Virus record (IMG/VR): IMGVR_UViG_3300032093_000687
Coordinates: 1-27,297 of that record
Reading direction: 5' to 3' (one strand)
Source: a virus
DNA length: 27,297 nt
The stretch's first letter is position 1. The number at the start of each line of letters is the position of its first letter. Position numbers and translations under genes: made by a program. Under the pieces are notes generated by a model. It worked only from the letters and a program-made list of their open reading frames with translations. It did no database searches and was not told where the DNA came from. This document shows positions 1 to 13,221 of this stretch, one piece after another.

Positions 1-3000
1 ACTATCGTTTTGCAAATGGTCAGTTGGTGGATGAGCAAGGCAATCCTATTTCACTTGGTCCTGACATCCCGCTTCAAGCGATGCCAGATGGCACATCGAT
101 TTCTGTTGACACACGAATCGCTAGAAACGCCGATGGATCACCTCTCATCCTTTCTCCACGCGAGTCTAAACGCCGCGCAAAGAAGCGTGGTGAAGCTATC
201 CGAAAAGTTATTGACGAAGCAGCAGACGATGACTCTGGCGTGAGATTGGAAGACACAGGCAACGGCAACTATCGCGGAACGCTTTCTCCAACGCAGATTG
301 CAGCAATCAATGCATTGCCAAACGATCTCGTTGCTCCATCACTTAAACGCAAGATTGCATTCTTTAACGATATCTTGGGGCGCAAAGACGGCAGTATCGT
401 TGAGATCGAATACCAAGCTGCGATGCGTGATAAAAAATATCGTGCATTGCAACCGCAGATGAGAACTGAAATCCCGATTGGTTTCCAGTTCGACAAGCAA
501 GGCAATTTCTTGATGACCACCATGTCCATGTCGCGGATGCACGATAAGGCGAATGCTTGGGCGGCAAAGCGTCCTCGCAATCTTCGTTTATGGGGTGGAG
601 ACATGACCAAGTTCTGGGATTCGGTCAGGCAGTATCTGCACAATCATAAAGCAGGATTACAAGGTCACATTAATCTGCATCCAGACCCAGCTATCGCAAT
701 GGAGATGAAGAATCGCATCAACGATCTTTTCAATGTCTATCGCAAAGAGACTCGCGAGGCTAACCCCGAACGCACGACTCTGCCAAAACGCCGAGGTCAA
801 GACAGCATGGATGTGGTTATCCGTTCACGCCGAATGGATCGAATCAATAGCTATGACGAGACGGCAATGCCCAAAATGCCGTTTCAATATGAACTAGCAG
901 TCCAAAACTATCTCCCGGCTGAAAATCCGTTTGCTGAATTACAAACCCCAGAGCAGTTCGCAAGGGGCATGGAGATCGATACCGAACTAGCCAGACTCGC
1001 CGCACAAGGTAATGTCGAGCCTCTAGAACTGCAATTGCACGAACAAGACCTATTGCGTCCTGCCGAGTATGTAGATGTTCAAGACGGCAAACTTCGCGTT
1101 CGCTCCATGTTTGATCCTACGCAAGCCGTGTTCGATCCAATGGAAAGCGAACCAGAAAAACCATCGCTTGAAGTTGTAGAGACTGAAGTCGAGATGCCGC
1201 AGGAATTAGGTAAAATTAAATCAAAAGTTCCTACGCAAGAGGAACTGGATGCTATGAAGGAAAGATTGCCGAAATATAGCACAAAATTAGAAGATATAAA
1301 TGAAACGCAAAAGTATATTTTAATTTATGATGAAAATGGAAATGATGCTGCTAGTGCAGAAGTTTCGTTTAATAAAGATAACAATTCTTTAGATATAGAT
1401 TGGATTGGCACTAACATAAAAAATAAAGGTTTTGGAAGTGCAATATATCGCGAAGTTGCAAGGTATGCTCAACAACAAAATTTTGATACTATTGAAGGAG
1501 ATATTGTTAGTGATAAAGCACTAAAACGAAGAGAAGAATTGCTTCCAACTATTTCTAAAACAAAAAAGCCACTTGGTGATGACGAATATTCTACAACATT
1601 AGTTAGCAAGGTTCCATCTGATATTAGATTCATGCCTGCCGCCGAGATCGAAGCACCATCAGGAGAGCGTGGATTCCAGAGCAAGTTGCAAACTGAAATC
1701 CAACGCAAATTCCAAGGCGCGAATGCAACGCCAGAGCAGTTGAAAGCAGTTCTTGGTAATCCTCAAAATGTCAAACCTGAAGAGATCAAGTGGTCAGGCG
1801 TGATGAACGAGATTGATCGTTTGGCGCAGGAGAATAACGGAAAGGTTCCCGTGCAGGCATTGGTGAATTACCTGCGTGATGAAGGGCAAGTTAAATTTGA
1901 GGAAGTTACCATTGGAGATGATAATGGAATTCAAAAAATTGCTGATCAATATAGAATTAAAATTGAAGAGGAGTATGGGGAAAAAGCATTTTACGATGAA
2001 TTTGATGAGCCTCTTGAATTAGATGAAGTTCCGCCTCAATTATTAGACGCAATATATAAAGCAGGGAAAAAGCCTGATCCAAGATATGCTCAATACCAAC
2101 TCCCCGGTGGGGAAAACTATCGCGAGGTTGTTTTGTCGATGCCAAGAAAAACTCTGCAACCAACTGATGCAGAAGTTAAAGAATATTACGGATTACTACC
2201 TCGCAAAGAAAATTTAACTGGCGATGAATTAGCACCAGACATTGGAGGTTCTATTACAAATATTGTTAATTCAGATGGTCGAATACTTACCTACTATGAT
2301 CAAGCCGACCCAGTTAAACGCAGAGAATTAGCCCAAAGATGGATTGAAGGTAATAAATCCATGTATCCAGATGCGCGATTGGAAGAAGATACAGTTAAAG
2401 GAACCCCAATCTGGCGAGTAAACATCACGCCAGAGATGGAGAATGTCGTTCGCGCAGGGCAGATTCAGTTCATGCCAGCAGATGCTGAAAATATAGAGTT
2501 TGCAAATCCTCCATCCGAACAAGAAGCAATTGATGCATTAAGTTCAAATAAACGCAATTTCTTTGGATTACATAGAGATTTAGAAGATGGTTATCCAGTT
2601 GGATTGAGAATTGATATTCCAGCATTTACATCAAAAGGCGTGTATGTTGTAACTGTTCACGAAAAGAAAAAAGGAAAAGAAAAAGGTCAGGTTGGTGACA
2701 GAATTGGATATGATACTATTGCAAAAGTAACTGATCCTGTTTTCTTTTCTAATGAAATTGGTGCAAAAAAAATAAAATCTGGAGAAGCAAACAAATTCCC
2801 AGTAGCAACAGTTGAAGGTAAATTTAATTCATCAAGAGATATACCAGAAGATATTAATGAATGGACTCCAGTTGGATATAATCCAAAAGATCATTCTTAT
2901 TTTTACGATAAAAGAAATGAAGAACCAGTTTTATCTGGAGATGAAGCAATTTCTGTAGGAAATACTGTTTTTGTCAAAAATCCTGTATATGGGAATAGAT

Positions 3001-5930
3001 CGGATTTTGCATTCATGCCATCAGAGCAACCGCAAGGCATGGAAGATGTGGAAATGCCACAGACATATCGGCGCATCTCTGACATGATTCCTCCATTGCA
3101 AGGCGTTGAGCCTCCTGTTCGTGGTCGAGTTGAAGAACCAGCATTGTCTGGGCTTGCTATGCCAGCAGGACAAATTCAATTCATGCCAGCGGAATCGACT
3201 TCTAAAAAATCAAAAGAACAAAAGTTAAAAAATACATTAAAAGTGCGAATGACAAGAAAAGCACTTACTGATGCTGCATTGAGTCAAGAATCGTGGAAAG
3301 ATTGGTATAAAGAGCATCAGGATGTTCTTGATGATTTTTTTGGAGACTATGCAGAACTATTTCAAGAAATTCTTGCCGTTACTTCTCAAGCCGCATCAGT
3401 AAAAGCAAATGTTGGTCTTGCTTTAAAAGCATTTGGTCAGTTAATGCGTGGTGAAGAATTTGATGCTAGATTGCGTGGAGAGGAAAAGGGAGGATATCTT
3501 GATGGGGTTATCAACAACCTCAATGCCATCAAAAACAAAACTGATGTTTCAGGTAGGAAGATTTCAAATTACAAAGCAGCAAACGAAGGAGATGCAAGTC
3601 GAGTTGTTGTTGATCGTCACATTACCCGCTTGTTGTTTGGAGTAGACACTCCAAGCAAGGCGCAGTATGATTTAGCCGAAAAAGTATTAACAGAAATTGC
3701 CAATGACATTGGTTGGGAACCTTCACAAGTGCAAGCTGCACTATGGGCGCACTCAATCGTACTGTCAGGAAAAAAACCAGAATCTTATGGAGCGTACCTT
3801 ACAAAACTTGAGTCTGCCAAACTCACAAAACGAGAACTCGCAAGTGGACTCACAGGAAATCAACTCACCAGACGAATTGGAGAACTTGCTTATGCAGGCG
3901 CAGGAAGCATTGAATCTGGCAAAGGCAGGGGGAGATATTCTCCAATTAGCGAAGTTGAAATTAACGGAGTTAAGCAAGTAAGATTTCCTACAGATATCAG
4001 ATTCATGCCGTCTGGAGAAATCCCGACTGCTAAAGAGGTTCTTAAAAAGCCTCTTGAAAATCTTCCGTTACGCGAGGCAAGCACTTGGACAGAAATACAA
4101 GAAGCACCTATCATTACACTAAAAGACCTTATTGGGAAAAAGGTATTCCCGACTTTTGCTGATATTACATCTGCTGGAAGAGTATTCAAAGGAATTGATT
4201 CAAGTGAACTTTTAATTCCAATTGAAACTCATGGTGGTCCTGAATGGCCTTTGATCCAAGCAGAAAAAGTTGGAGAAGAAACCAATGTTTGGTCAAACCA
4301 AGGTGCTGGCGTAACAACAACAAAAGCAAAACGAGCAGATGAAGGAGCCATAATGCTTGTCACGCTTATGGATAAAAATGCCCATATGTCAAATACTGAA
4401 GTTGCGAATGCAATTATTGGAACAAATTTGGCATATGTAAGAGATGAAAGAATTACTGCAAATAATTTAAAACTTCTAAACAAAAAAATTAAATCAGAAG
4501 AAGTATTTGATGACTTTGTAGGAATCGACTCTCCTGATATTAATGATTATGTTTCAAAACTTCCATTCCAAGGTGATAAAAGTAGAGCAAGACTTGCTAC
4601 CATTTTGTCATTAAAAGAGTCAGAAGAACTTGGTGCAGCAAATGTTCAGCGCATTCTTGATGAGATGCGTAGTCCAGAATTTGAAGGTGGCAGGATTGGA
4701 GATTCTGTAATTGCTCTGCAATTGTCCAAAGGCGCACCAGTTGTTAAACTGTCAGATTCTGGTGGAATGACTCATCCTTCATATCAATATGCTGTACGAG
4801 GAAAGGTAATTGGAAAATTTGCTCGTCCTATAAATGCTGAAATGATTTATGATGATTTCATTGCACAAAGAAGAGCAGAAGGCAAACCGCAAAAGGGAGA
4901 TCGCAGGGCAATTGATCTTGCAAAACCAGTTCAAGTTATAACAGAACAAATTGCAAGCCGCATACCGCAAACTCCATACAAATATTTAAAATCAGCGCAA
5001 CACGCTAAATTGTTAAAGTATGCGCTTGAAAATAAATGGAAAGATTCAGGCACTGCAAAAAATAAAGGTGGAATTTCTCCAGCAGAATTTATTGACACTT
5101 TAAATTCAAGCGAAGCAAAGGTTGCTCTTAATGATTACACTCTTGATTCAGTAAAAAAAGAAATCAAAGATGGTAAATTAAATTTGTATCAACTTGGAGA
5201 CTCTAAAGTCTTTTTTGGGACAAAGAATACCAACCCTGCAAGCGACTATGGATTAGACCCGAAAGACTACGGGTTTGGTGAAAATGAGAAAACGCTAACA
5301 TTGGTATTGAATGCCGAGCGTGGGACCGCTGGCATGGGAGATGCCATTATGATGAAAGCATTGTCAGAAGGCGTGACTGCTCTCGATTGTTTCGCGATTA
5401 AAAACTCAAGATACCCTGATGGTATGTTGCCTTCATTGTACAAGCGATTCGGATTTGAGGTTGTCGGTGAAATCCCATTTGACCCGCAATACTACACGCC
5501 ACAAAAATTGGAAGACATAAAATTGTTTTGGAAAAATAATGGTTGGGACGAATCTACTGGACTTCCTTCCGTTGTTTTGATGAAATGGAAAGGAAATGAA
5601 AATGACCGAACAGGAACCCTACGAGATATTGCTGGAAAGAGTCCGACAGGTATTCGGGAACGAACTGAACTCGTTGTCGAAAACGCAAGACGCGATTCTG
5701 AACGGACTGATATTGGACAGAGTGGAGTCCCACAAGGGGGATTACAGCAAGGTGAGTCTGGACGAGGTGGAGGGAGTGCGGGAGATGCTGTACAAAGAAT
5801 TCAGCTTGGCAGAGGCACAATAAATGCAATCCAAGAATTGCTTGGAATGAATGATGCTGAACTTAAAAATTTAGGGATCGATCCAACGCAAATTAAAGCA
5901 ATCAAAAAAGCAGTAGGGATGTCGCAATAA
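1..5930 (+). CDS. Giant modular phage polyvalent protein, 5' truncated by window edge
   Basis: The frame is open to the left edge (in-frame residues Y-R-F-A-N-G-Q-L precede the first TTG at 24), so the start lies outside the window; residue numbers here count from that TTG. The 1,968 visible residues are a chain of modules, as in phage polyvalent proteins thought to be packaged and injected. Visible modules: unrecognised N-terminal region 1-390; GNAT-like domain about 425-515 with an N-K-G-F-G-S acetyl-CoA loop; region 640-815 with LPGGENYREV and ITPEM motifs; region 830-1000 with GYNPKDHSYFYD; a helical region 1060-1320 resembling DUF7178; region 1330-1650; a second GNAT-like region about 1700-1860 with G-M-G-D-A and L-Y-K-R-F-G-F-E; and a Gly/Gln-rich tail. 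Five FMP[AS] motifs separate modules. No signal peptide or membrane segment was seen. Domain names are inference from motif resemblance; that this is a phage polyvalent protein is fairly certain. Confidence 0.8.
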   Translation, partial: YRFANGQLVDEQGNPISLGPDIPLQAMPDGTSISVDTRIARNADGSPLILSPRESKRRAKKRGEAIRKVIDEAADDDSGVRLEDTGNGNYRGTLSPTQIAAINALPNDLVAPSLKRKIAFFNDILGRKDGSIVEIEYQAAMRDKKYRALQPQMRTEIPIGFQFDKQGNFLMTTMSMSRMHDKANAWAAKRPRNLRLWGGDMTKFWDSVRQYLHNHKAGLQGHINLHPDPAIAMEMKNRINDLFNVYRKETREANPERTTLPKRRGQDSMDVVIRSRRMDRINSYDETAMPKMPFQYELAVQNYLPAENPFAELQTPEQFARGMEIDTELARLAAQGNVEPLELQLHEQDLLRPAEYVDVQDGKLRVRSMFDPTQAVFDPMESEPEKPSLEVVETEVEMPQELGKIKSKVPTQEELDAMKERLPKYSTKLEDINETQKYILIYDENGNDAASAEVSFNKDNNSLDIDWIGTNIKNKGFGSAIYREVARYAQQQNFDTIEGDIVSDKALKRREELLPTISKTKKPLGDDEYSTTLVSKVPSDIRFMPAAEIEAPSGERGFQSKLQTEIQRKFQGANATPEQLKAVLGNPQNVKPEEIKWSGVMNEIDRLAQENNGKVPVQALVNYLRDEGQVKFEEVTIGDDNGIQKIADQYRIKIEEEYGEKAFYDEFDEPLELDEVPPQLLDAIYKAGKKPDPRYAQYQLPGGENYREVVLSMPRKTLQPTDAEVKEYYGLLPRKENLTGDELAPDIGGSITNIVNSDGRILTYYDQADPVKRRELAQRWIEGNKSMYPDARLEEDTVKGTPIWRVNITPEMENVVRAGQIQFMPADAENIEFANPPSEQEAIDALSSNKRNFFGLHRDLEDGYPVGLRIDIPAFTSKGVYVVTVHEKKKGKEKGQVGDRIGYDTIAKVTDPVFFSNEIGAKKIKSGEANKFPVATVEGKFNSSRDIPEDINEWTPVGYNPKDHSYFYDKRNEEPVLSGDEAISVGNTVFVKNPVYGNRSDFAFMPSEQPQGMEDVEMPQTYRRISDMIPPLQGVEPPVRGRVEEPALSGLAMPAGQIQFMPAESTSKKSKEQKLKNTLKVRMTRKALTDAALSQESWKDWYKEHQDVLDDFFGDYAELFQEILAVTSQAASVKANVGLALKAFGQLMRGEEFDARLRGEEKGGYLDGVINNLNAIKNKTDVSGRKISNYKAANEGDASRVVVDRHITRLLFGVDTPSKAQYDLAEKVLTEIANDIGWEPSQVQAALWAHSIVLSGKKPESYGAYLTKLESAKLTKRELASGLTGNQLTRRIGELAYAGAGSIESGKGRGRYSPISEVEINGVKQVRFPTDIRFMPSGEIPTAKEVLKKPLENLPLREASTWTEIQEAPIITLKDLIGKKVFPTFADITSAGRVFKGIDSSELLIPIETHGGPEWPLIQAEKVGEETNVWSNQGAGVTTTKAKRADEGAIMLVTLMDKNAHMSNTEVANAIIGTNLAYVRDERITANNLKLLNKKIKSEEVFDDFVGIDSPDINDYVSKLPFQGDKSRARLATILSLKESEELGAANVQRILDEMRSPEFEGGRIGDSVIALQLSKGAPVVKLSDSGGMTHPSYQYAVRGKVIGKFARPINAEMIYDDFIAQRRAEGKPQKGDRRAIDLAKPVQVITEQIASRIPQTPYKYLKSAQHAKLLKYALENKWKDSGTAKNKGGISPAEFIDTLNSSEAKVALNDYTLDSVKKEIKDGKLNLYQLGDSKVFFGTKNTNPASDYGLDPKDYGFGENEKTLTLVLNAERGTAGMGDAIMMKALSEGVTALDCFAIKNSRYPDGMLPSLYKRFGFEVVGEIPFDPQYYTPQKLEDIKLFWKNNGWDESTGLPSVVLMKWKGNENDRTGTLRDIAGKSPTGIRERTELVVENARRDSERTDIGQSGVPQGGLQQGESGRGGGSAGDAVQRIQLGRGTINAIQELLGMNDAELKNLGIDPTQIKAIKKAVGMSQ
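1629..4009 (+). repeat. Five dispersed FMP seam repeats (nucleotide core TTCATGCC)
   Basis: The octamer TTCATGCC occurs in frame at 1629-1636, 2469-2476, 3012-3019, 3180-3187 and 4002-4009. It encodes F-M-P inside the peptides DIRFMPA, QIQFMPA, DFAFMPS, QIQFMPA and DIRFMPS (residues 534-539, 814-819, 995-1000, 1051-1056 and 1325-1330). Each copy ends one module and starts the next. Phe is TTC at all five, although the AT-rich modules mostly use TTT. Whether the conservation acts at DNA level (recombination seam) or protein level (linker, cleavage or binding site) cannot be told from this window. Confidence 0.8.
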
Positions 5931-5983
5931 TCGATTCAAGTTTTTTTTGAAAAATTTAATCAAGGGTGTAAAAAAGAAATAAT

Positions 5984-6139
5984 ATGCCACTACGAAAATG
6001 CGCTTCACAAAATTGCTTTGATCGCAATGTTTCCTCGGAAGTAAAGTCAGGAAAATCGGTGAAACAATCGGTGGCGATTGCCTACGCAGTACAACGCAAG
6101 GCGCGAGCGAAAAAAGCTGCTGCTGCTCGCAAAAAATAA
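5984..6139 (+). CDS. Small basic phage protein (51 aa)
   Basis: The ORF encodes MPLRKCASQNCFDRNVSSEV followed by KSGKSVKQSVAIAYAVQRKA and a Lys/Ala/Arg tail. It resembles a widespread family of tiny phage and plasmid proteins with a core of the type 'N-[IV]-x-x-E-[IV]-x-x-G-K-x-x-x-Q-x-V-A-I-A', to which no biochemical function has been assigned. The basic tail (R-A-K-K-A-A-A-A-R-K-K) suggests nucleic-acid binding, which is inference. It lies 53 nt after the polyvalent gene and 5 nt before the tRNA. The leader 'aagggtgtaaaaaagaaataat' has only a weak purine-rich ribosome site. Confidence that it is translated is good because the family pattern is intact; no function is claimed. Confidence 0.75.
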   Translation: MPLRKCASQNCFDRNVSSEVKSGKSVKQSVAIAYAVQRKARAKKAAAARKK

Positions 6140-6144
6140 TTTTC

Positions 6145-6218
6145 CGCAGGATAGAGAAAAGGTATCTCGTCAGGCCCATAACCTGAAGTTCAAGGTTCGA
6201 CTCCTTGTCCTGCAACCA
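6145..6218 (+). tRNA. Initiator-like tRNA, anticodon CAT (tRNA-fMet type)
   Basis: A full cloverleaf can be drawn. Acceptor: CGCAGGA (6145-6151) with TCCTGCA (6208-6214), six pairs plus a C1xA72 mismatch. D stem: GAGA/TCTC with loop AAAGGTA. Anticodon stem: TCAGG/CCTGA with loop CCCATAA, so the anticodon is CAT at 6177-6179. Variable region: AGTT. T stem: CAAGG/CCTTG with loop TTCGACT. Discriminator A and an encoded CCA (6216-6218) follow. The C1xA72 mismatch and the A11:U24 pair in the D stem are known marks of bacterial initiator tRNAs. Two departures: position 33 is C rather than U, and the anticodon stem has only two of the three G:C pairs at 29-31/39-41 (29:41 is A:U). An elongator Met or a k2C-Ile tRNA is less likely because of the 1:72 mismatch. 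Confidence 0.9.
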
Positions 6219-6267
6219 CCCGCAGAGTGAGTATTCATGCGGGTCTGCGGAATACTTGAGTTTTTTG
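6219..6267 (+). terminator. Alternative hairpins and T-tract after the tRNA
   Basis: Three perfect stems can form here. CCCGCA 6219-6224 pairs with TGCGGG 6238-6243; CGCAGA 6221-6226 pairs with TCTGCG 6244-6249; AGTATTC 6230-6236 pairs with GAATACT 6250-6256. The last is followed after four bases by TTTTTT (about 6261-6266), which is the layout of an intrinsic terminator with a 13-nt loop. The stems share or interleave bases and so are mutually exclusive. Termination of the tRNA transcript is the simplest role; a switch is possible. Confidence 0.5.
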
Positions 6268-6294
6268 TCAAGCGTCAAGCATAAATAGTTTTTT

Positions 6295-6349
6295 TATGAC
6301 ACAAGAGTCAAAAAATAATTCTTGATAACCCAAGCGGATTCGGTAGAGT
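6295..6349 (+). promoter_or_regulatory. Promoter P1 of a three-copy family
   Basis: TATGACA (6295-6301) is followed by an A-tract, then TTGATA (6322-6327), a 16-nt spacer ACCCAAGCGGATTCGG and TAGAGT (6344-6349). The same order recurs at P2 and P3. Hexamers and spacing fit a sigma70-type promoter, although the -10 is poor. Predicted transcription start is near 6356, immediately before the ATG at 6357. Confidence 0.6.
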
Positions 6350-6356
6350 GACTGCC

Positions 6357-6563
6357 ATGACAACAAACCAAGCCGACAACGACCTGTATGTAGAATACCT
6401 CTCCCAAGCCACGGGAGAGGAAGAGTTCATCCTTGGAGAAACCAAGTGGCAATATTGCTGGTGCAGGTATAGCGATGGTCGTCGCGACCTCGGCGTCTAC
6501 AGCTTCGCTGGCGACCTCTGCTACGGCTACCAAGCCTTCCGCGAAAAATTCAACCTCAACTAA
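6357..6563 (+). CDS. Small hypothetical phage protein (68 aa), probably leaderless
   Basis: The ATG at 6357 is preferred to the in-frame GTG at 6348, because the GTG lies inside the predicted -10 hexamer of P1. The protein begins MTTNQADNDLYVEYLSQATG and has the aromatic, Cys-containing core WQYCWCRYSDGRRDLGVYSF. It is acidic at the N-terminus and mostly beta-like, with no recognised domain. It is the first gene after P1 and is followed two bases later by the next gene. With transcription starting near 6356 the message would have essentially no 5' leader. No function can be given. Confidence 0.6.
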   Translation: MTTNQADNDLYVEYLSQATGEEEFILGETKWQYCWCRYSDGRRDLGVYSFAGDLCYGYQAFREKFNLN

Positions 6564-6565
6564 CC

Positions 6566-6757
6566 ATGAAACGCGAATTCGACACATTCGGTAAAACCCA
6601 AACTGAAATCCGGGCATACAATAAGCGCACCCGCAAAACACGGGTGCGTGACCTCTGCGCCAAGCACAACACTACTTCCTACTCCGAGGCGCAGCACTTC
6701 GACACCATCGAACTCTGCGCCCGGATCAACGCTCACCTAGCATCACTCAAAAAATAA
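6566..6757 (+). CDS. Small basic hypothetical protein (63 aa)
   Basis: The protein starts MKREFDTFGKTQTEIRAYNK and is strongly basic in its first 30 residues (K-R-T-R-K-T-R-V-R), ending in a helical region with A-R-I-N-A-H-L. It lies two bases after the preceding stop and four before the next start, so it is probably translated as part of the P1 operon. The leader (actaacc) has no Shine-Dalgarno. No family was recognised; nucleic-acid binding would be a guess from charge alone. Confidence 0.55.
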   Translation: MKREFDTFGKTQTEIRAYNKRTRKTRVRDLCAKHNTTSYSEAQHFDTIELCARINAHLASLKK

Positions 6758-6761
6758 TACC

Positions 6762-6983
6762 ATGAACATCACCAAGAAAAAAATTAACCAAGCTATCAAG
6801 CATCTGAACCTTGAAATTATCGGGAATGGTGACGGGTACTTCTACTTCGTAGACCTCGCCACAAGTCACCAGATCGGCAATAGCGTACTTGTTTGCTACC
6901 TGAAGCACCTGACGCTCCAAAGATGGGTTGAAGAGGCTACAGAGGCAAGGAACAGCAACATTATCGAAGGAGTACAGCAATGA
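6762..6983 (+). CDS. Conserved small phage protein, GDGYFYF family (73 aa)
   Basis: The pattern is MNITKKKINQAIKHLNLEII, then G-N-G-D-G-Y-F-Y-F-V-D, then SVLVCYLKHLTLQRWVEE. This matches a common uncharacterised phage family with an N-terminal helix, a central G-x-G-Y-F-Y-F strand and a C-terminal 'L-[ST]-L-x-x-W-V-E' helix. Biochemical role is unknown. It is in the P1 operon and its 3' end overlaps the next gene by four bases (ATGA), which suggests translational coupling. The leader 'aaaataataccATG' lacks a Shine-Dalgarno. Confidence 0.7.
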   Translation: MNITKKKINQAIKHLNLEIIGNGDGYFYFVDLATSHQIGNSVLVCYLKHLTLQRWVEEATEARNSNIIEGVQQ

Positions 6984-7243
6984 ACATCACCGCACCAACA
7001 GTCCACTTGAACGGAACCCCAGCCACAAACCTCTGGGCAGGCTACGAGGCAGCATACGATGCCGTACGGGCCGCGCAGGACGCACTAGCCAAGATCGAGT
7101 TCAACGCTCGCGATTACTATGTGCAAGGCCAAGAAGCGTGGAACAAGGCTCTCAATCACCGCATAGAGCAGGCAGCATCACTTCGTCAGGTCGAGGGCTA
7201 CCTCTTCCAGCACCTGATCGAACTACAGCAACAAAAGAAGTGA
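6980..7243 (+). CDS. Conserved helical phage protein (87 aa)
   Basis: The N-terminus reads P-T-V-H-L-N-G-T, followed by LWAGYEAAYDAVRAAQDALA, ARDYYVQG and a C-terminal helix ending QQQKK. This is a recognisable small phage family (beta strand with HLNGT, helix, R-D-Y-Y-x-Q-G, helix, likely a helical hairpin) of unknown function. A good ribosome site (GGAG, eight bases upstream) lies inside the preceding gene, and the start overlaps that gene's stop (ATGA). An alternative 160-residue frame across this stretch is a shadow. Confidence 0.7.
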   Translation: MNITAPTVHLNGTPATNLWAGYEAAYDAVRAAQDALAKIEFNARDYYVQGQEAWNKALNHRIEQAASLRQVEGYLFQHLIELQQQKK

Positions 7244-7273
7244 ATTTGCTTTACATTCTCGGACATGGCATAA

Positions 7274-7501
7274 ATGCGAAATATGCCGCACAACCATCCA
7301 GCATTCCCTGTTCAAGGGAGTCAGAGTCCGCCGATCAGGCCGAACTCTGGAATGAGTATGCGCGACTGGTTCGCAGGTTCCGCCTTGCAGGGCTACAGGG
7401 CATCAGATAAATTTAGCCAAGCAGATTCGCGTCTTGTAGCGGAGCTATCGTTCCGCGATGCGGATTCAATGCTAGATGAAAGACAAAAAATAAATGAATA
7501 A
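7274..7501 (+). CDS. Conserved small phage protein, 'MSMRDWFAG' family (75 aa)
   Basis: The motifs are H-P-A-F-P near the N-terminus, then G-M-S-M-R-D-W-F-A-G-S-A-L-Q-G-Y, and a C-terminal A-D-S-M-L-D-E-R. This order (PAFP ... GM[ST][LM]RD[YW]FA..AL ... AD.ML..R) is a very common small phage protein of unknown function. The start at 7274 is chosen as the first ATG of the frame after the upstream stop; ATG at 7283 is also possible. It overlaps the next start by eight bases. Confidence 0.75.
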   Translation: MRNMPHNHPAFPVQGSQSPPIRPNSGMSMRDWFAGSALQGYRASDKFSQADSRLVAELSFRDADSMLDERQKINE

Positions 7502-7757
7502 AGACAATAACAACGAAGCTCCGGGAACCCCGGAGGAAGAAATCAAAAACTCTGTCGAGTCAGTTCTTGCTGGCATCGATTTTGAGAAGATCAGTAAGGA
7601 CGATGTGTTTCACGATTTGATGCACAACACAAAATTGTTCAGCTTCCGCTTGATGGTTGCGTCTGCATTGCTAGAGCAACTTCACCTCCGCGAAACTGTC
7701 GGCAAACAAGAACCGGACAATGTCGTTAAATTCTCCGAGGATGAGCCAAAAAGTTAA
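7494..7757 (+). CDS. Acidic hypothetical protein (87 aa)
   Basis: The protein begins MNKDNNNEAPGTPEEEIKNS and continues with a predicted helical core (V-F-H-D-L-M-H-N-T-K-L-F-S-F-R-L-M-V-A-S-A-L) and an acidic tail. There is no recognised family, signal peptide or membrane segment. The leader 'gacaaaaaataaATG' is A-rich without a Shine-Dalgarno. Its 3' end overlaps the next gene by 17 bases in a different frame. It is probably a P1-operon gene. Confidence 0.55.
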   Translation: MNKDNNNEAPGTPEEEIKNSVESVLAGIDFEKISKDDVFHDLMHNTKLFSFRLMVASALLEQLHLRETVGKQEPDNVVKFSEDEPKS

Positions 7758-7893
7758 AGACAACGAGTGGACGAGAAACGGCAAGGGTGACAAACCTCGG
7801 ACCGATACGCAGTCCAAGCAGTACCAAGAAAACTTCGACTCCATCGATTGGAGCGCACACAAAAAATCTAATGAACACAAAAACGAAAAATGA
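7741..7893 (+). CDS. Small conserved phage protein (50 aa)
   Basis: The sequence runs MSQKVKDNEWTRNGKGDKPR and then Y-Q-E-N-F-D-S-I-D-W near the middle. The 'G-D-x-x-R ... Y-x-E-N-[FY]-D-x-I-x-W' pattern is shared by many tiny phage proteins of unknown role. It starts inside the preceding gene and ends inside the next one, which is typical of tightly packed phage genes. No function is assigned. Confidence 0.65.
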   Translation: MSQKVKDNEWTRNGKGDKPRTDTQSKQYQENFDSIDWSAHKKSNEHKNEK

Positions 7894-8041
7894 TCCTCTT
7901 CCCTCGCCTGTACGCCGATTCCTTTCGGAGATCGGAAAGCGTGGAGGAAGCGCAACGAGTGACAAAAAAAGATTGGCGGCAGCACTCAATGGAATGAAGG
8001 GTGGAAGACCTCGCAAAGTTGCGGTAGCCTGCGAAGCCTGA
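7871..8041 (+). CDS. Small basic protein with GRP/K-G-G motifs (56 aa)
   Basis: The ATG at 7871 is preferred to an upstream in-frame start at 7787, because the family similarity begins after it and the upstream residues are low-complexity read-through of the previous gene. Motifs are F-L-S-E-I-G-K-R-G-G and L-N-G-M-K-G-G-R-P-R-K. The G-K-x-G-G ... N-G-x-K-G-G-R-P-[RK]-K pattern is a frequent small phage or bacterial protein. The G-R-P core resembles an AT-hook, so DNA minor-groove binding is plausible but inferred. It is the last gene before promoter P2. Confidence 0.7.
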   Translation: MNTKTKNDPLPSPVRRFLSEIGKRGGSATSDKKRLAAALNGMKGGRPRKVAVACEA

Positions 8042-8089
8042 TTTAATCGGCGTCTGCGGGTGTCAACAGAAATTTAAAAGAATTTTTTC

Positions 8090-8145
8090 TATGACAAAAA
8101 ATATTTTTATTCTTCTATTGCAAACCCAAGCAGGTTCGATATTGT
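8090..8145 (+). promoter_or_regulatory. Promoter P2 of the three-copy family
   Basis: TATGACA (8090-8096) and an A/T tract lead to TTGCAA (8118-8123), a 16-nt spacer ACCCAAGCAGGTTCGA and TATTGT (8140-8145). The spacer matches P1 in 13 of 16 positions. Expected start of transcription is near 8152, leaving a leader of about 48 nt before the ATG at 8200. The 158-nt gap from 8042 to 8199 contains this promoter and a six-codon ORF. Confidence 0.6.
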
Positions 8146-8164
8146 CATCTCCATCGAAGGCACG

Positions 8165-8185
8165 ATGCCGACGAACCAACCATAG
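8165..8185 (+). other. Possible six-codon leader ORF (M-P-T-N-Q-P)
   Basis: ATG at 8165 opens MPTNQP and stops at TAG 8183-8185, between P2 and the gene at 8200. It resembles the start of the first P1 gene (MTTNQA) in both peptide and DNA (AACCAA shared). It may be a leader peptide or simply a remnant of a duplication that carried the promoter. Confidence 0.3.
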
Positions 8186-8199
8186 AAAAAATACATACA

Positions 8200-8916
8200 A
8201 TGAAAGCTACACAAATCGGAACCTGCCAAATCTGCGGATCAGTACAAAAACTCCCTAATGGTCGCCTTGCCAAGCATGGATACACAGTCGAGTACGGATG
8301 GGGATTCAACGGAGTTTGCAATGGTAGTGGAAGGTTACCATTTGAAATCTCCAAGGAATATGCTGAAGCGGCTTTAGCTTCCTCCAAGACCAGTTTTGAG
8401 AATCTTGTTGCTCCTACTGAACAACTCGACAGGCAAGCCGAATGGAGACCAGAAAACTCCTCATTCCTTACCGAAGCTCAACGCACTCTCAAGAAACAGT
8501 GGAACGAGTACAACCAGACGAAACGATACCTCTCTGAATTCATCCGCTTTCAGACTCCTCGTTGCTTTGCTTGGACTCCACAACCTCTCAAGGATGTTGC
8601 CGAGGAGGCAACCAAGCAAGAGACCGCAAAAGTTGCTACACGCAATGTCCGCGCTCTTGCTCGCCATCGTGACGATACAAAGCGTGAGTTGATCCGCTCC
8701 GTTGAGAAAATCGAGAAGGCAGTTGATTGCTACGACCTGTCCTACCCAACGACTGCCAATGCTCAAAAGTATGCAGACCTTGCTCGCAAGAATGGTCAGG
8801 TTGAACTCGCAGACGAGGTAGTCAACAAACTCGCCGCATTCAAGGCCGCGAAATCCGCTCACGCTGATGCAACGGCAGCATACGAATCCGACAAGAAAGC
8901 GGCACTTGCCGCCTAA
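8200..8916 (+). CDS. Zinc-binding, helix-rich phage protein (238 aa)
   Basis: The N-terminal 50 residues carry a likely zinc-binding module: G-T-C-Q-I-C-G-S-V-Q-K-L, then L-A-K-H-G-Y, then G-V-C-N-G-S-G (C9, C12, H26 and C40). This 'C-x-x-C ... HGY ... C-x-G-S-G' signature occurs in uncharacterised phage proteins. The rest is Ala/Lys/Glu-rich and helical, probably coiled coil (about 85-238). It is the first long gene after P2 and precedes the DUF932 gene by 47 nt, a pairing that suggests a shared early function. The leader 'aaaaaatacatacaATG' has no Shine-Dalgarno. Function unknown. Confidence 0.7.
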   Translation: MKATQIGTCQICGSVQKLPNGRLAKHGYTVEYGWGFNGVCNGSGRLPFEISKEYAEAALASSKTSFENLVAPTEQLDRQAEWRPENSSFLTEAQRTLKKQWNEYNQTKRYLSEFIRFQTPRCFAWTPQPLKDVAEEATKQETAKVATRNVRALARHRDDTKRELIRSVEKIEKAVDCYDLSYPTTANAQKYADLARKNGQVELADEVVNKLAAFKAAKSAHADATAAYESDKKAALAA

Positions 8917-8920
8917 CCTT

Positions 8921-8936
8921 TGTTCTCCCCAGAACA
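8921..8936 (+). other. Short hairpin TGTTCT-CCCC-AGAACA
   Basis: This is a perfect 6-bp stem with a CCCC loop in the 47-nt gap between the zinc-binding and DUF932 genes. It has no T-tract. It could be an RNA processing or stability element, or chance. Confidence 0.3.
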
Positions 8937-8963
8937 CAACCATCAACAGAAAGACCCAATACA

Positions 8964-9746
8964 ATGAACATCATCACTCCAACACTCGAAATCGTGAACA
9001 CTAACCCAGTCGAGGCTACCCATGCCTCATCAACCCGGAGCGAACGCTACGGATTCATATCGACACAGCAGATCGTTTCCTCTTTCGAGGAGAACGGCTA
9101 TGTCCCTCGTCAAATCCAACTCGCCAAAGCGAGGAAGGACGAAAACAAGGGATTCCAAAAGCACCTGATCCGTTTCGGTCATCGCGACAACATCACGATT
9201 GCTGGCGAGGCATCACCAGAGTTCGTGTTGATCAACTCGCATGATGGCACATCCTCGGCTCAACTCTCCGTTGGCTTGCAAGTCTTCGCCTGCCTCAACG
9301 GACTCGTAGGTGGGGACATCTTTGAGACGATCAAGATTCACCATCGTCGAGTCGATGTATCGCAGTTTATTGAAGCGGCAACTCGCCTTCGCGACAATGT
9401 GCCGTTCCTTGCCGAGCGTGTTCATGCCTTCAAGAACAAAGAACTCACCGAGGCGGCACAGAAGCAGTATCTGGTCGATGCGCTAAAGCTCCGCTACGAC
9501 CAACCTGAAGCGGATGCGGACTACGCAGATCGCCGGGAGTGGGACACTCGCCTGTTCTATCTCAATCGCGCTCGTCGTTACGCTGACTCTGGAACCAACC
9601 TCTGGCACACATTCAATCGTGTTCAGGAGAACCTCGTCAAAGGCCGACCAGGTTCTGGCATTCGCCGAGTCACCGCACCGACCACCGACTTCAAGGTTAA
9701 CAAGCAACTCTGGAACCTGTCAGAGCAATACCTCCTCAACAACTGA
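8964..9746 (+). CDS. DUF932 (phage/plasmid-like) family protein
   Basis: The 260 residues follow the DUF932 pattern: R-Y-G-F-I-S-T-Q-Q-I-V near residues 28-38, a G-F-Q-K-H-L-I-R-F-G-H strand, F-V-L-I-N-S-H-D-G-T-S-S-A-Q-L, F-A-C-L-N-G-L-V and a later helical half. DUF932 proteins are common on phages and plasmids. Their biochemistry is not established; roles in early takeover or anti-restriction have been suggested from context. No membrane segment is present. The leader is A-rich without a Shine-Dalgarno. It is followed by a strong hairpin at 9754-9780. Confidence 0.85.
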   Translation: MNIITPTLEIVNTNPVEATHASSTRSERYGFISTQQIVSSFEENGYVPRQIQLAKARKDENKGFQKHLIRFGHRDNITIAGEASPEFVLINSHDGTSSAQLSVGLQVFACLNGLVGGDIFETIKIHHRRVDVSQFIEAATRLRDNVPFLAERVHAFKNKELTEAAQKQYLVDALKLRYDQPEADADYADRREWDTRLFYLNRARRYADSGTNLWHTFNRVQENLVKGRPGSGIRRVTAPTTDFKVNKQLWNLSEQYLLNN

Positions 9747-9753
9747 TCTCAAC

Positions 9754-9780
9754 TGGAGCGAGGTCCGATCCCTCGCTCCA
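9754..9780 (+). terminator. Perfect 10-bp hairpin after DUF932 gene
   Basis: TGGAGCGAGG (9754-9763) and CCTCGCTCCA (9771-9780) form a perfect GC-rich stem with a 7-nt loop, eight bases after the DUF932 stop. The following sequence (attcaactaaaaaacc) has no T-tract, so it is not a textbook intrinsic terminator on this strand. A partial terminator or an mRNA 3'-end stabiliser is more likely. Confidence 0.5.
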
Positions 9781-9796
9781 ATTCAACTAAAAAACC

Positions 9797-10027
9797 ATGA
9801 GCAAAAAAGAAGCACTCGCAACCTATCTCGGATGGGACTACGCAGACCTCTGCTTGTACCAACCGCACAACTGGAACCATCCTATCGTTACCTGTGACGA
9901 TGAATGGTACACGGCATCCACGGGAAAATGCAGACCAACGCTACGCAGTCGAGATGGTCACACAATTGTCGATCTCGAAAAGGTTGGTGAGATCGGAACG
10001 AAAACAATCTGGAGGTATCGTCCATGA
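9797..10027 (+). CDS. Hypothetical protein (76 aa)
   Basis: The sequence begins MSKKEALATYLGWDYADLCL and is rich in Trp, Tyr and polar residues (H-N-W-N-H; I-W-R-Y-R-P at the end), suggesting a small compact fold. No known family was recognised. The leader 'ctaaaaaaccATG' lacks a Shine-Dalgarno. Its end overlaps the LuxR-type gene by four bases (ATGA), so the two are probably co-translated. Confidence 0.6.
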   Translation: MSKKEALATYLGWDYADLCLYQPHNWNHPIVTCDDEWYTASTGKCRPTLRSRDGHTIVDLEKVGEIGTKTIWRYRP

Positions 10028-10278
10028 AATCTCTCATCGAAAAATTGTTTGAATTAAAAGCAGGCAAGCTGCCGAAAGCATCGCGGCGTGAACAGGAAGT
10101 TGCTGGTTACATTGCCGCAGGAAATACGAATCAGCAGATCGGAGAAATCCTCGGCATCAGCATCAAGACAGTCGAAAAACATCGCGAATCTTTGCACCGA
10201 AAATTTCATTTCCGAAATACTGCCGACATCTGCCGATGGGCCTTGGCAAAGGGTCTAGCGCACAATGAATGGCTATGA
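10024..10278 (+). CDS. Solo LuxR/GerE-type helix-turn-helix regulator (84 aa)
   Basis: Residues 20-78 form a complete LuxR-type DNA-binding domain: S-R-R-E-Q-E-V-A-G-Y-I-A-A-G, N-T-N-Q-Q-I-G-E-I-L-G-I-S, the recognition helix I-K-T-V-E-K-H-R-E-S-L-H-R-K, and N-T-A-D-I-C-R-W-A. There is no receiver or autoinducer-binding domain, so it is a stand-alone HTH. A clear GGAGGT lies eight bases before the ATG, inside the preceding gene. The stop codon overlaps the TATGACA element of P3, which places the regulator directly against a candidate target. Regulation of P1-P3 is inference. Confidence 0.88.
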   Translation: MKSLIEKLFELKAGKLPKASRREQEVAGYIAAGNTNQQIGEILGISIKTVEKHRESLHRKFHFRNTADICRWALAKGLAHNEWL

Positions 10279-10328
10279 CACAGCAGCAAAAAAAAGTTAT
10301 TGACCACCCAACTTGCTTGGGTTAATTT
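10274..10328 (+). promoter_or_regulatory. Promoter P3 of the three-copy family
   Basis: TATGACA (10274-10280), an A8 tract, TTGACC (10300-10305), then spacer ACCCAACTTGCTTGGG and TTAATT (10322-10327) or TAATTT (10323-10328). The spacer contains an inverted repeat, CCCAA-CTTGC-TTGGG, absent from P1 and P2, which could be an operator. Expected start is near 10334, about four bases before the ATG at 10338. Confidence 0.6.
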
Positions 10329-10337
10329 CAAAATCTA

Positions 10338-10463
10338 ATGGAAATACAAGTACCACTAATCGTCACACTCCAGCATTGCTTGGAGTTCGTGTTCACCTTC
10401 CTGCCAGTTGCCATATTGGCGGGAGCAACCATAACCGCGCTATCAATCGGCAAAAATGAGTGA
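10338..10463 (+). CDS. Tiny single-span membrane protein (41 aa)
   Basis: The ORF encodes MEIQVPLIVTLQHCLEFVFT followed by FLPVAILAGATITALSIGKNE. Residues 5-37 are almost continuously hydrophobic, giving one or two short transmembrane segments with a charged C-terminus. It begins just after P3 with a leader of about four bases and overlaps the next gene by eight bases. Small phage proteins of this kind can be holin-like or membrane-active takeover proteins. No family was recognised. Confidence 0.55.
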   Translation: MEIQVPLIVTLQHCLEFVFTFLPVAILAGATITALSIGKNE

Positions 10464-10614
10464 TCTCTACATCATCTGCGTTGGCATCGCATCCTTCATT
10501 GCAATTTGCGTTGCTTACAGAGCAGGCAGACAAAGCGTCCTCGATGAATACGAGGAATATCGGAAGCGGAGACGGGAACGGGAACAACGCTGGGAAGAAT
10601 TTGAGGAGGACTAA
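10456..10614 (+). CDS. Tiny membrane-anchored protein with charged tail (52 aa)
   Basis: An N-terminal transmembrane helix (MSDLYIICVGIASFIAICVA) is followed by a highly charged helix with Y-E-E-Y-R-K-R-R-R-E-R-E-Q-R-W-E-E-F-E-E-D. The layout is a membrane anchor with a soluble, possibly coiled-coil tail. It overlaps the preceding gene by eight bases and is followed two bases later by the next. An inner-membrane spanin role is conceivable because a lipoprotein follows, but the length is short for that family. The basis is sequence features only. Confidence 0.6.
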   Translation: MSDLYIICVGIASFIAICVAYRAGRQSVLDEYEEYRKRRREREQRWEEFEED

Positions 10615-10616
10615 AA

Positions 10617-10754
10617 ATGGGCATCGAAAAAAACGAAGCGACTTGCCTTCCACCGGAAGCGTACCTGCGGATCATCCGGGCTTGCGAAAATCAAGTTCCG
10701 AAATTCAGAAGCACAGTTTACCCCCAGAAGAAAACCAAGAAGGAGAAAAAATGA
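10617..10754 (+). CDS. Tiny basic protein (45 aa)
   Basis: It begins MGIEKNEATCLPPEAYLRII and ends in a Lys-rich tail (P-Q-K-K-T-K-K-E-K-K). No family was recognised. It starts two bases after the preceding stop and its own stop overlaps the lipoprotein start (ATGA at 10751-10754). Its C-terminal codons contain the AGGAG ribosome site of that lipoprotein, so part of its purpose may be translational coupling. Confidence 0.5.
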   Translation: MGIEKNEATCLPPEAYLRIIRACENQVPKFRSTVYPQKKTKKEKK

Positions 10755-11077
10755 AACTACAGCAACTAGCAGTCATTACTACGGCACTTGCCGTGCAGGC
10801 TTGCTCTACTGTGAGCAAAGAAACCTATACAGAAACAAGGACGCTTTCCTACCCAAAGAAAAGCGTTCCTCACATAAAAGATTTCTACCTGCAAAATCAA
10901 CAGCAGGCAGAAACCCCCGCACCTGTTAACGCACCCGTCTACGCTGGCATCTTGCCAGACAACGATGTGTTGCCACAGGAAAACCCAGAACAAGAGTTGG
11001 AGAGACTCCAGCATCAAAATGCTCTTCTCTCCGCTCAAATCTACAACGAAACACTCCGCAACCAACTAACCCAATAA
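10751..11077 (+). CDS. Small predicted lipoprotein (108 aa)
   Basis: The start at 10751 is chosen because AGGAG lies at 10741-10745 and because MKLQQLAVITTALAVQAC is a short signal peptide ending at a lipobox-like V-Q-A-C (C18). The Q at -2 is unusual, so lipidation is likely rather than certain. The mature part is polar and Pro/Gln-rich (Q-A-E-T-P-A-P-V-N-A-P-V) and ends with a helix rich in Leu, Gln and Glu (about 84-108). It closes the P3 small-protein cassette. Possible roles are an outer-membrane spanin or a superinfection-related surface lipoprotein; neither is shown by motif. A longer reading of this frame from 10460 is rejected. Confidence 0.7.
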   Translation: MKLQQLAVITTALAVQACSTVSKETYTETRTLSYPKKSVPHIKDFYLQNQQQAETPAPVNAPVYAGILPDNDVLPQENPEQELERLQHQNALLSAQIYNETLRNQLTQ

Positions 11078-11084
11078 ATACATT

Positions 11085-11903
11085 ATGCAATTAGCAACAA
11101 CAACCCAACAACCCAGCATCACCGAATTAGAGGCAATGGCTGGACACATCGTCAAATCCGGTCTTTTCGGCATCAAGAAAGTCGAAGAGGCAGTAGCACT
11201 CATGTTGATCGCGGTAGCCGAGCATAGGCATCCCGGTACTGTAGCTAGCGAGTACAATATTATTTTGGGGCGACCTGCTTTGAAAGCAGACGCTATTCTC
11301 GCTCGATTCCAGTCTGCTGGAGGTAAGGTCGAGTGGCATGACTATACCGACACAATCGTGTCAGGCACATTCAGTCACCCTGCTGGCGGATCGCTCAAGG
11401 TGGACTGGGATATGGATCGCGCCAAAGCGGCAGGACTTGGCGGCAAAGACAACTGGAAAAAATTTCCACGGCAGATGCTTCGCGCCAGATGCATCTCGGA
11501 CGGGGTTCGCGGGGTATATCCTGCTGTTTTGCAGGGATTTTATACTCCAGAGGAAGTTCAAGACTTCGCGCCATCTACATCTGCACCAGCACCAGCACCC
11601 GCTCCAGCACCTGCTCCTGCGAAGAAAGCGAAGAAGGTCGAGCCAGAACCAGAGGTGATCGAGATCAAAGCTGAAGAGATCGTCGTTGTCGAAAACAACA
11701 TTGTTGCCGAGGACAACTCATGGATCAACGACCTTGAGCCTGTTCTTGGTCAGAACGAAGATGCGGTTAACGCATTCCTAGCTACGAAGGGTCAGATCGA
11801 CGCTGGCAAGACATGGCGCGATCTTGAGGACAACGAATACCGCAAGCGCATCATTGCGAATCCAGCAGGGTTCGTTGGAGCGGCTACCGGAGGAAAGAAA
11901 TGA
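11085..11903 (+). CDS. RecT-like single-strand annealing protein
   Basis: Residues 12-160 match the phage RecT-type annealing family: A-G-H-I-V-K-S-G-L-F-G-I (19-30), Y-N-I-I-L-G-R-P-A-L-K-A-D-A (57-70), L-A-R-F-Q-S-A-G-G-K-V-E-W (72-84), F-S-H-P-A-G-G (96-102), W-K-K-F-P-R-Q-M-L-R-A-R (124-135) and Y-T-P-E-E-V (153-158). Such proteins anneal complementary single strands during phage recombination. A Pro-Ala repeat (about 166-180) and an acidic linker lead to a small C-terminal domain (about 215-268), perhaps for partner binding. The next gene, overlapping by four bases, is a PD-(D/E)XK nuclease, so the two form a Red/RecET-like pair. The leader is A-rich without a Shine-Dalgarno. Confidence 0.85.
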   Translation: MQLATTTQQPSITELEAMAGHIVKSGLFGIKKVEEAVALMLIAVAEHRHPGTVASEYNIILGRPALKADAILARFQSAGGKVEWHDYTDTIVSGTFSHPAGGSLKVDWDMDRAKAAGLGGKDNWKKFPRQMLRARCISDGVRGVYPAVLQGFYTPEEVQDFAPSTSAPAPAPAPAPAPAKKAKKVEPEPEVIEIKAEEIVVVENNIVAEDNSWINDLEPVLGQNEDAVNAFLATKGQIDAGKTWRDLEDNEYRKRIIANPAGFVGAATGGKK

Positions 11904-12898
11904 TTAGGCACTCTGCACTACCAAAATTGCAAGCCTGCCCATGCTTTGAGTCTGCCGGGGGAACATCCCCGGCAGCAAGCAGGGGAACGAAAATTGACGC
12001 AGTTCAACGCAGGATGCTCGCAGGAGAGGATTCTGCGATCAATGACCTGACAGAACAGAGAGACATTGATGCGGCAGTCTGGGGCGTACAGGAACTACTG
12101 CGCCTTGCGAATGGCGCGGAGGTGGAAACCAAGGAGGAAAACCTAAAGGTTATTACGCCGGGCATGACTCATGTCGGAACCGAGGATTCCAGAGCATCCA
12201 GCATCTGCACCTCATGGGATTTTAAGACCGGACAAATCTACGATTACGAGGCGCAGGCGGCAGCATACTGCTACGGAAACATGGAGCGTGAATTCGCAGA
12301 CGAGTGGACCCTTCACCTGTTATTCACCGACCAGAAGATCGTGGTCACTCATCACTTCAATCTTGCGGAAGCAAGAGCAATCGTGGAGCGAATCATTGCG
12401 GCGTACAACGATCCAGACAAGCAACCATCCGCCTGCCAGTTTTGCTCATGGTGCGCCAAGAAGTCTACTTGCCTACAGATTGTAAAGCCTGCCGAGCAGA
12501 CGCTACGAGTTGTCAATAACGAGGTATCACTTGATACATTGAAGGCGCAACTCGCCGAGCCAGAGAAGTTGGGGAAATTTCTTAAAGCCTGCAATATTTT
12601 CAAAAAAGAATTGTGGGACTGGGCGAAGGAGGAAGCTAGGGAGCGTATCGAGCGAGGCGAGGTGGTCCCCGGATGGAGGATTTCCAAGGCAAAAGGCAAG
12701 GAGGAATTCACTCCTGAATCTGTAGCTTTTGCCGCGCAATCGTGCGGGGTCACCTATAAGGAACTCGCGGAGTTATTCGGAAACATTGGCGCGGAAGACT
12801 TCCGCAAGTGGGCAGCGGCACGGGATTACTTCCCGTCTAATGAAGATGTTGTGATCGGAAAGGAATCAACCCGGTTAATCGAGGACAAAAAGAAATGA
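11900..12898 (+). CDS. PD-(D/E)XK exonuclease with Cys cluster (Cas4/RecB-like)
   Basis: The 332-residue protein has the order expected of DUF2800/Cas4-like phage exonucleases. H-S-A-L-P-K-L-Q-A-C-P sits at 4-14. The nuclease core is H-V-G-T-E-D (91-96), W-D-F-K-T-G (106-111, with D107 and K109) and Y-E-A-Q-A-A-A-Y (116-123). A C-terminal cluster follows, C179-x2-C182-x2-C185-x5-C191, which with C13/C15 could hold an iron-sulfur cluster. The likely role is resection of double-stranded ends for the adjacent RecT-like protein. GGAGG precedes the ATGA overlap. Cofactor and polarity are inferred. Confidence 0.85.
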   Translation: MIRHSALPKLQACPCFESAGGTSPAASRGTKIDAVQRRMLAGEDSAINDLTEQRDIDAAVWGVQELLRLANGAEVETKEENLKVITPGMTHVGTEDSRASSICTSWDFKTGQIYDYEAQAAAYCYGNMEREFADEWTLHLLFTDQKIVVTHHFNLAEARAIVERIIAAYNDPDKQPSACQFCSWCAKKSTCLQIVKPAEQTLRVVNNEVSLDTLKAQLAEPEKLGKFLKACNIFKKELWDWAKEEARERIERGEVVPGWRISKAKGKEEFTPESVAFAAQSCGVTYKELAELFGNIGAEDFRKWAAARDYFPSNEDVVIGKESTRLIEDKKK

Positions 12899-13221
12899 GT
12901 CAATATCCATACCCAAAATTAAAAAAAGCATTACTTGAACAGATTGAAAGCGATTTAGAAGTTTGGCTTGCCGATTTCGGGCCTCAATGGGCTGAACCAT
13001 TTGTTACTCTAGATTCAAAAGGTAATGGATTTTATGTATCACTTACTGAAGATGTAGAAAACGATAAATTGTTATCGTGGTCTAAATTTATGGAGCAACA
13101 ACAATGCCCAAACTTTGCGTCAATTACTGCGGCAAAGAAACATCTTAAAAATGCTAATAAACTAGTTAAGATGCTTGAAATTGAAGTTAAAAAAATGGAG
13201 GAATATGAAAGAAAAATATAA
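12895..13221 (+). CDS. Hypothetical protein with coiled-coil tail (108 aa)
   Basis: It begins MSQYPYPKLKKALLEQIESD and ends with a Lys/Leu/Glu helix (A-N-K-L-V-K-M-L-E-I-E-V-K-K-M-E-E) likely to be coiled coil. The middle has a short beta-rich stretch (G-N-G-F-Y-V-S-L-T-E-D). It is more AT-rich than the exonuclease gene, with which it overlaps by four bases. No family was recognised. Confidence 0.6.
   Translation: MSQYPYPKLKKALLEQIESDLEVWLADFGPQWAEPFVTLDSKGNGFYVSLTEDVENDKLLSWSKFMEQQQCPNFASITAAKKHLKNANKLVKMLEIEVKKMEEYERKI

Follow-up and report, generated by a model that had tools for sequence, protein, structure and literature searches.

The locus raises the question of why one short peptide, F-M-P-[AS], recurs along a single large phage protein and whether it marks joints at which whole domains are exchanged. 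The stretch of DNA analyzed here (the window), a linear fragment of 27,297 bases, makes up an entire IMG/VR record, and the protein in question is a polyvalent protein whose ORF has lost its 5' end at the contig edge; intact relatives are 2041 to 4193 aa long. A first-pass annotation made from the sequence alone had reported five in-frame octamers encoding F-M-P-[AS] and had read them as the seams of a cassette system. All five were confirmed together with their coordinates: TTCATGCC occurs on the + strand at 1629, 2469, 3012, 3180, and 4002, in frame within the ORF at 3..5930, in the contexts SDIRFMPA, GQIQFMPA, SDFAFMPS, GQIQFMPA, and TDIRFMPS (seams 1 to 5). A sixth copy of TTCATGCC at 9421 lies beyond the polyvalent ORF, and 2.0 octamers would be expected per window. 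In the polyvalent ORF, FMP is observed five times against 0.08 expected, and no more than three copies arose in 20,000 residue shuffles. The first-pass annotation missed a degenerate sixth seam, EVEMPQE at nt 1185-1205, referred to here as seam 0. With this seam included, the ORF divides into the following features.

3..5930, + strand: ORF of the polyvalent protein, 1975 aa, truncated 5' at the contig edge
3..1184, + strand: C-terminal portion of cassette A, the conserved core; the part that bears HExxH in relatives is upstream, off the contig
1185..1205, + strand: seam 0, degenerate EVEMPQE; homology to L032 runs up to 1205, and homology to L058 runs from 1185
1206..1619, + strand: GNAT acetyltransferase cassette, AT-rich, GC3 0.16 (likewise in L029, L042, and L044)
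1620..1640, + strand: seam 1, DIRFMPA
1641..2456, + strand: cassette B, internally shorter than in relatives, C-terminal ITPEMENVVRA
2457..2480, + strand: seam 2, GQIQFMPA; several relatives have homology blocks that stop at nt 2476
2481..2999, + strand: cassette X, weak Phage_L5_gp82 match, GC3 0.11, 85% identity to L004
3000..3023, + strand: seam 3, SDFAFMPS; left block stops at 3020, right block starts at 3012
3024..3167, + strand: short proline-rich linker cassette, present too in L007, L005, and L044
3168..3191, + strand: seam 4, GQIQFMPA
3192..3989, + strand: cassette Y, DUF7178-like, 84% identity to L016
3990..4013, + strand: seam 5, TDIRFMPS, without a GC step
4014..5930, + strand: C-terminal cap K, 91% identity to L004 and 89% to L006

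The DNA had also been said to change character at the seams, on the basis of seven by-eye counts of G+C, every one of which proved exact. Over 120 nt to the left and right, GC moves from.33 to.53 at seam 1, from.48 to.34 at seam 2, from.31 to.52 at seam 3, and from.51 to.33 at seam 4; the claim fails at seam 5, where both sides stand at.43. The mean absolute GC difference at the seams was.142 (p ~0.003 by comparison with the seam set shifted to other positions in the ORF). Unguided GC segmentation of the ORF placed the strongest change at nt 1203, at the degenerate seam EVEMPQE, and a further one at 1569, 60 nt to the left of seam 1; seams 2 to 4 were not recovered by this segmentation of the ORF alone. 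Comparison of codon use and GC across the seams showed that the cassettes carry their own base composition, including third-position GC. The GNAT cassette has a GC3 of 0.16, 0.16, 0.14, and 0.14 in four proteins that average 0.27 to 0.30, cassette X has 0.11 to 0.19, and cap K has 0.23 to 0.25; the exception is the distant GNAT of L052, at 0.41. GC flips at the seams because each cassette retains its own composition.

Relatives were collected from IMG/VR by scans with the whole ORF (16 loci), with an alignment of the conserved core (39 loci), and with the DNA encoding DIRFMPAE (9 loci, of which 8 lay clearly in large polyvalent-type ORFs; the ninth, L024, has a truncated ORF that is of the polyvalent kind as well). 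When 26 related IMG/VR proteins were cut at F[ML]P, about 20 recurring cassette families were obtained. The core always comes first, four alternative caps are found at the C terminus, and the order of cassettes is mostly unique to each protein. Most proteins have 3 to 7 seams, and their cassettes are internal and re-ordered. The GNAT cassette, for example, precedes cassette B in the window and follows it in L006, L018, and L044, so that module order differs between relatives with the seams fixed, as the cassette proposal had anticipated. The same order with uniform divergence throughout would have refuted that proposal and was not seen: between L004 and the window, identity is 35% in the core (over the overlap), 85% in cassette X, and 91% in the C-terminal cap, and the core of L004 is only about 25% identical to those of other members. 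These changes of order and partner support swapping of domains at a short shared seam. Cassettes do change order and partners between related phages, and we regard it as nearly certain that they shuffle at the seams. An alignment across all cassettes, built for the question of a single fold, misaligned because cassette order differs, and it was dropped. A scan of genome contigs with the core found no prophage and no host, and a PDB sequence search with the whole ORF as query returned no match. Among cultured phages, none with clear repeated seams was found; the ART domain occurs in Tunturi_5, phiGT1, and vir555 with no obvious repeated seam. At L010:5034-12745 (a contig shared with L036), the polyvalent gene consists of two overlapping ORFs split within cassette B, which is a frameshift or an assembly error.

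The breakpoints of homology between relatives place the joints more precisely. Within the F[ML]P group, 43% of breakpoints lay within 20 aa of an F[ML]P against 11% expected, a value reached by none of 2000 random shifts; an earlier count in 29 proteins gave 45-50% against 12%. Joints thus concentrate strongly at a short peptide of the approximate form x-(I/L)-x-F-(M/L)-P. Roughly half of all breakpoints lie away from F[ML]P, for example inside cassette B and in proline-rich linkers. At the level of DNA, blocks of homology to relatives stop at 1636 (L018), 2476 (several loci), and 3020 (L004 and L056) and start at 1628 (L044, L059, and L023) and 3012 (L032), so that at seams 1 and 3 the octamer is the only stretch covered by both the left and the right partner. 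At seam 0, L032 tracks the window up to 1205, and L058, which has a distant core, shows 99% identity from 1185 onward until its contig ends. A different arrangement was observed at residues ~2000-2250 of the L011 protein (ORF 5034-13211), where a proline-rich linker holds a nested insert of ~280 aa that is 94% identical to part of L004 and is flanked at both ends by PTI[GS]EK; this insert is a second joint type besides F[ML]P. Two genes elsewhere in the window are relevant to how exchange might proceed.

11085..11903, + strand: RecT-like annealing protein, a candidate for the recombinase that exchanges cassettes (an inference)
11900..12898, + strand: exonuclease-like protein, adjoining RecT

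Rad52-like phage recombinases have been linked to relaxed homologous recombination, according to the title of PMC3945230. We hypothesize that cassettes are exchanged by short-homology recombination in or beside the seam codons and that the RecT-like protein and the exonuclease may drive it. Recombinants without the correct seam would then be selected against, the peptide having a role in the protein.

It is possible that the octamer is instead kept as DNA, as a shared short homology, and that the peptide is merely a tolerated linker. Such a DNA-level seam would agree with the way homology blocks meet inside the octamer (seams 1 and 3) and with the presence of a RecT-like protein in the window. 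The codons also lend it some support: Phe is TTC at all five window seams, as had been pointed out in the first-pass annotation, and in 112 of 126 seams against 39% TTC overall, and the choice of Pro codon is a little more uniform within proteins (0.475 versus 0.372). However, TTC is already used at 36 of 45 (80%) non-seam F-M pairs of the same proteins, against which the FMP seams (89 of 96) are only marginally special (Fisher p = 0.04), and usage of the seam Pro codon is near background. Moreover, the FLP seams (30 of 126) break the octamer but still act as joints, and TTCATGCC/TTTATGCC occurs outside seams in relatives too. The fixed TTC is mostly codon-pair context, and once the encoded peptide is taken into account, little about the octamer stands out as DNA; selection therefore appears to act on the peptide. 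We consider selection on the seam peptide probable and a purely DNA-level seam rather improbable, and we infer that recombination uses or tolerates the same place. The ATG in the seam also allows for internal translation starts, by which each F-M-P would begin a separate cassette protein. Shine-Dalgarno-like sites lie upstream of 6.6% of seam ATGs versus 10.6% of other in-frame ATGs, and with no such enrichment this explanation was disfavored. The FLP seams have no ATG, and the seams of the S-type proteins described below (YSI and FSI) have no Met, which leaves internal starts with very little to recommend them.

Selection on the peptide must also be weighed against a passive linker, in which only joints between domains survive and F[ML]P is a habit inherited from one duplicated ancestral linker. 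The few plausible Pfam matches in these proteins (GNAT, ART-PolyVal, DUF7178, and L5_gp82) are mostly weak, and in seven proteins no seam crossed one, so that the scattering of FMP inside folded domains that would have refuted the cassette proposal was not seen. In an AlphaFold2 model of the GNAT cassette the middle is confident, and pLDDT falls below 50 at residues 1-10 (seam 0) and again from residue 151 on, the FMP occupying 149-151. Pfam support for this GNAT is weak; Foldseek matched the model to GNATs with a best E value of 2.9e-7. ART-PolyVal was above the cut-off in L018, the ART was aligned in nine relatives, and its cassette starts directly after F-L-P. The suggestion that the seam serves as a protein linker is thus borne out for one cassette only. 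A passive linker would account for the seams that border the GNAT fold, for the freedom of the residues that flank seams, and for the many joints elsewhere, such as those in proline-rich linkers. It would also be expected to drift, but F[ML]P survives between cores that are only ~22% identical.

Variation of the seam among host proteins provides further evidence. The residue at position +2 after Pro is Glu in the clade of the window and Arg in three other clades, and its agreement within proteins was not reached in any of 5000 shuffles. A scan with the ART cassette yielded 80 loci, in many of which YSI, FSI, or (once) FQP precedes the ART instead of F[ML]P; these tripeptides recur in the same proteins. 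In counts made without selecting proteins, those with [FY][ML]P before the ART had F[ML]P at 53 further places, against an expectation of 6.2, and S-type motifs at 9, against 12.3; those with an S-type motif before the ART had S-type motifs at 97 places, against 23.9, and F[ML]P at 14, against 10.9. Breakpoints behave accordingly: in the S-type group 40% lay within 20 aa of [FY]S[ILMV] against 12% expected (0 of 2000 shifts reached 40%), and in the F[ML]P group, which served as a control, breakpoints did not cluster at [FY]S[ILMV] (0% versus 6.5%). In a second ART domain, the homologous tail terminates in DIRFMPAE, DMNFLPKR, SIAFSIG, DINYSIG, or EISFSMI, depending on the host protein. Seam type, F[ML]P or [FY]S[ILMV], therefore follows the host protein and not the cassette, and within the family the choice of E or R two residues after Pro follows the host protein as well. 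Both results are drawn from few independent lineages, the F[ML]P proteins belonging to a single broad family and the S-type proteins to a few families, and the p values overstate independence because the relatives form so few lineages; the copies of a seam may be alike through shared descent. Nevertheless, the lineage-specific tail endings and the clade-wise switch at +2 are not what a passive linker would produce, and we consider such a linker unlikely. The existence of at least one other phage lineage with a private seam peptide suggests a functional junction rather than a random linker. L101 and L086 contain possible further private seams (FQP and LFS), each in a single protein, and L024 and L027 belong to a different polyvalent family in which the ART tail also ends in DIRFMPAE.

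What such a junction would do can only be inferred. The polypeptide consists of a conserved N-terminal core, which has HExxH in relatives, then shuffled domains (GNAT, ART, DUF7178-like, short linkers, and others), and then one of several caps. The seam may serve as a site of recognition or processing at which the enzymes are released singly, either during assembly or once the protein has been ejected, and the HExxH region of the core is a candidate protease for the seams. Processing is our leading guess and explains a repeated, peptide-level, host-specific junction with the fewest assumptions; no proteolysis data stand behind it, and it is offered tentatively. HExxH, the motif of the zincin peptidases, was found in all 33 core regions recovered, and HExxH and further Glu residues are invariant in 29 aligned relatives. 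The AlphaFold2 model of this region is of low confidence (mean pLDDT 58), and Foldseek with that model found no significant fold match; a zincin fold could not be assigned, and the putative zincin identity of the core rests on the motif alone. Only 5 of the 20 captured ORFs of S-type proteins contain HExxH, and since most lack it, one zincin acting in cis cannot explain all seams. A head protease as the cutter gained no support, as no S78 or ClpP-type protease match was found in 10 relatives, whose records may be incomplete; the S77 search was uninformative, having given no signal in any control.

Part of this picture is already known. Iyer et al. (2017; PMC5512222) described polyvalent proteins of phages and conjugative elements as mosaics of domains, proposed that zincin-like peptidases autoprocess them, and reported the zincin-like MPTase as the commonest but not an obligatory domain. 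Like those proteins, the proteins of the present family are large and multidomain and join unlike enzymes (GNAT, ART, and a predicted metallopeptidase), and they satisfy the polyvalent definition of at least two unlike activities per polypeptide (GNAT fold, ART-PolyVal in relatives, and the HExxH core). In contrast, the passages searched in that paper mention neither a junction peptide that repeats nor a cleavage site nor a seam specific to a lineage, and the joints of the present family are mapped to within a few residues. The literature searched names no cutting site or joining rule for polyvalent proteins. New here are the missed seam 0, the composition bound to cassettes, the codon control for TTC, and the lineage-private seam.

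In the polymorphic toxin CdiA, delivery depends on precise cleavage after VENN (PMC9424206, PMC3482391), and there, as here, a conserved short peptide precedes swappable cassettes. However, CdiA has one junction before a single variable C-terminal toxin, a criterion that the window family, with several seams and internal re-ordered cassettes, does not meet. In phage SPN3US, ejected head proteins such as gp245 are cut by the prohead protease at an AXE motif (PMC10052503). The short motif specific to a phage lineage is common to both, but cutting has been shown for SPN3US and not here, the peptide is F[ML]P-x-[ER] rather than AXE, its sites separate domains instead of removing propeptides, and 10 relatives gave no match to an S78 or ClpP-type protease.

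Eukaryotic viral polyproteins are single polypeptides with a repeated, lineage-specific junction consensus between the mature proteins. The present family resembles them in its one chain and its repeated, lineage-specific junction consensus, whereas its cassette order is shuffled and its cleavage is not demonstrated. A bolder and still more tentative reading is that phage polyvalent proteins amount to genuine polyproteins whose junctions follow a code particular to each lineage (F[ML]P-AE, F[ML]P-xR, NYSI, FSI, and perhaps FQP), that a matched factor cuts or unfolds the chain, and that incoming cassettes need the code of the recipient. Our overall reading, a polyvalent protein of cassette architecture with short-homology exchange, a selected seam peptide, and processing as the inferred role of the seam, is held with moderate confidence. 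The repeated seam allows cassette borders to be drawn exactly in proteins for which domain libraries offer hardly any annotation, and it makes the older processing proposal directly testable at named residues. Splitting a giant phage protein at its private seam, one enzyme per piece, offers a route to new early-infection effectors.

The protein is probably injected into bacteria, a judgment that rests on genomic context only, and in-frame cassette exchange would give the phage a way to renew its injected arsenal. In relatives, the gene directly upstream of the polyvalent gene (L035:5976-7565 and L029:5904-7610) matches phrog_2534, "released from the phage upon host infection," a context in keeping with ejection.
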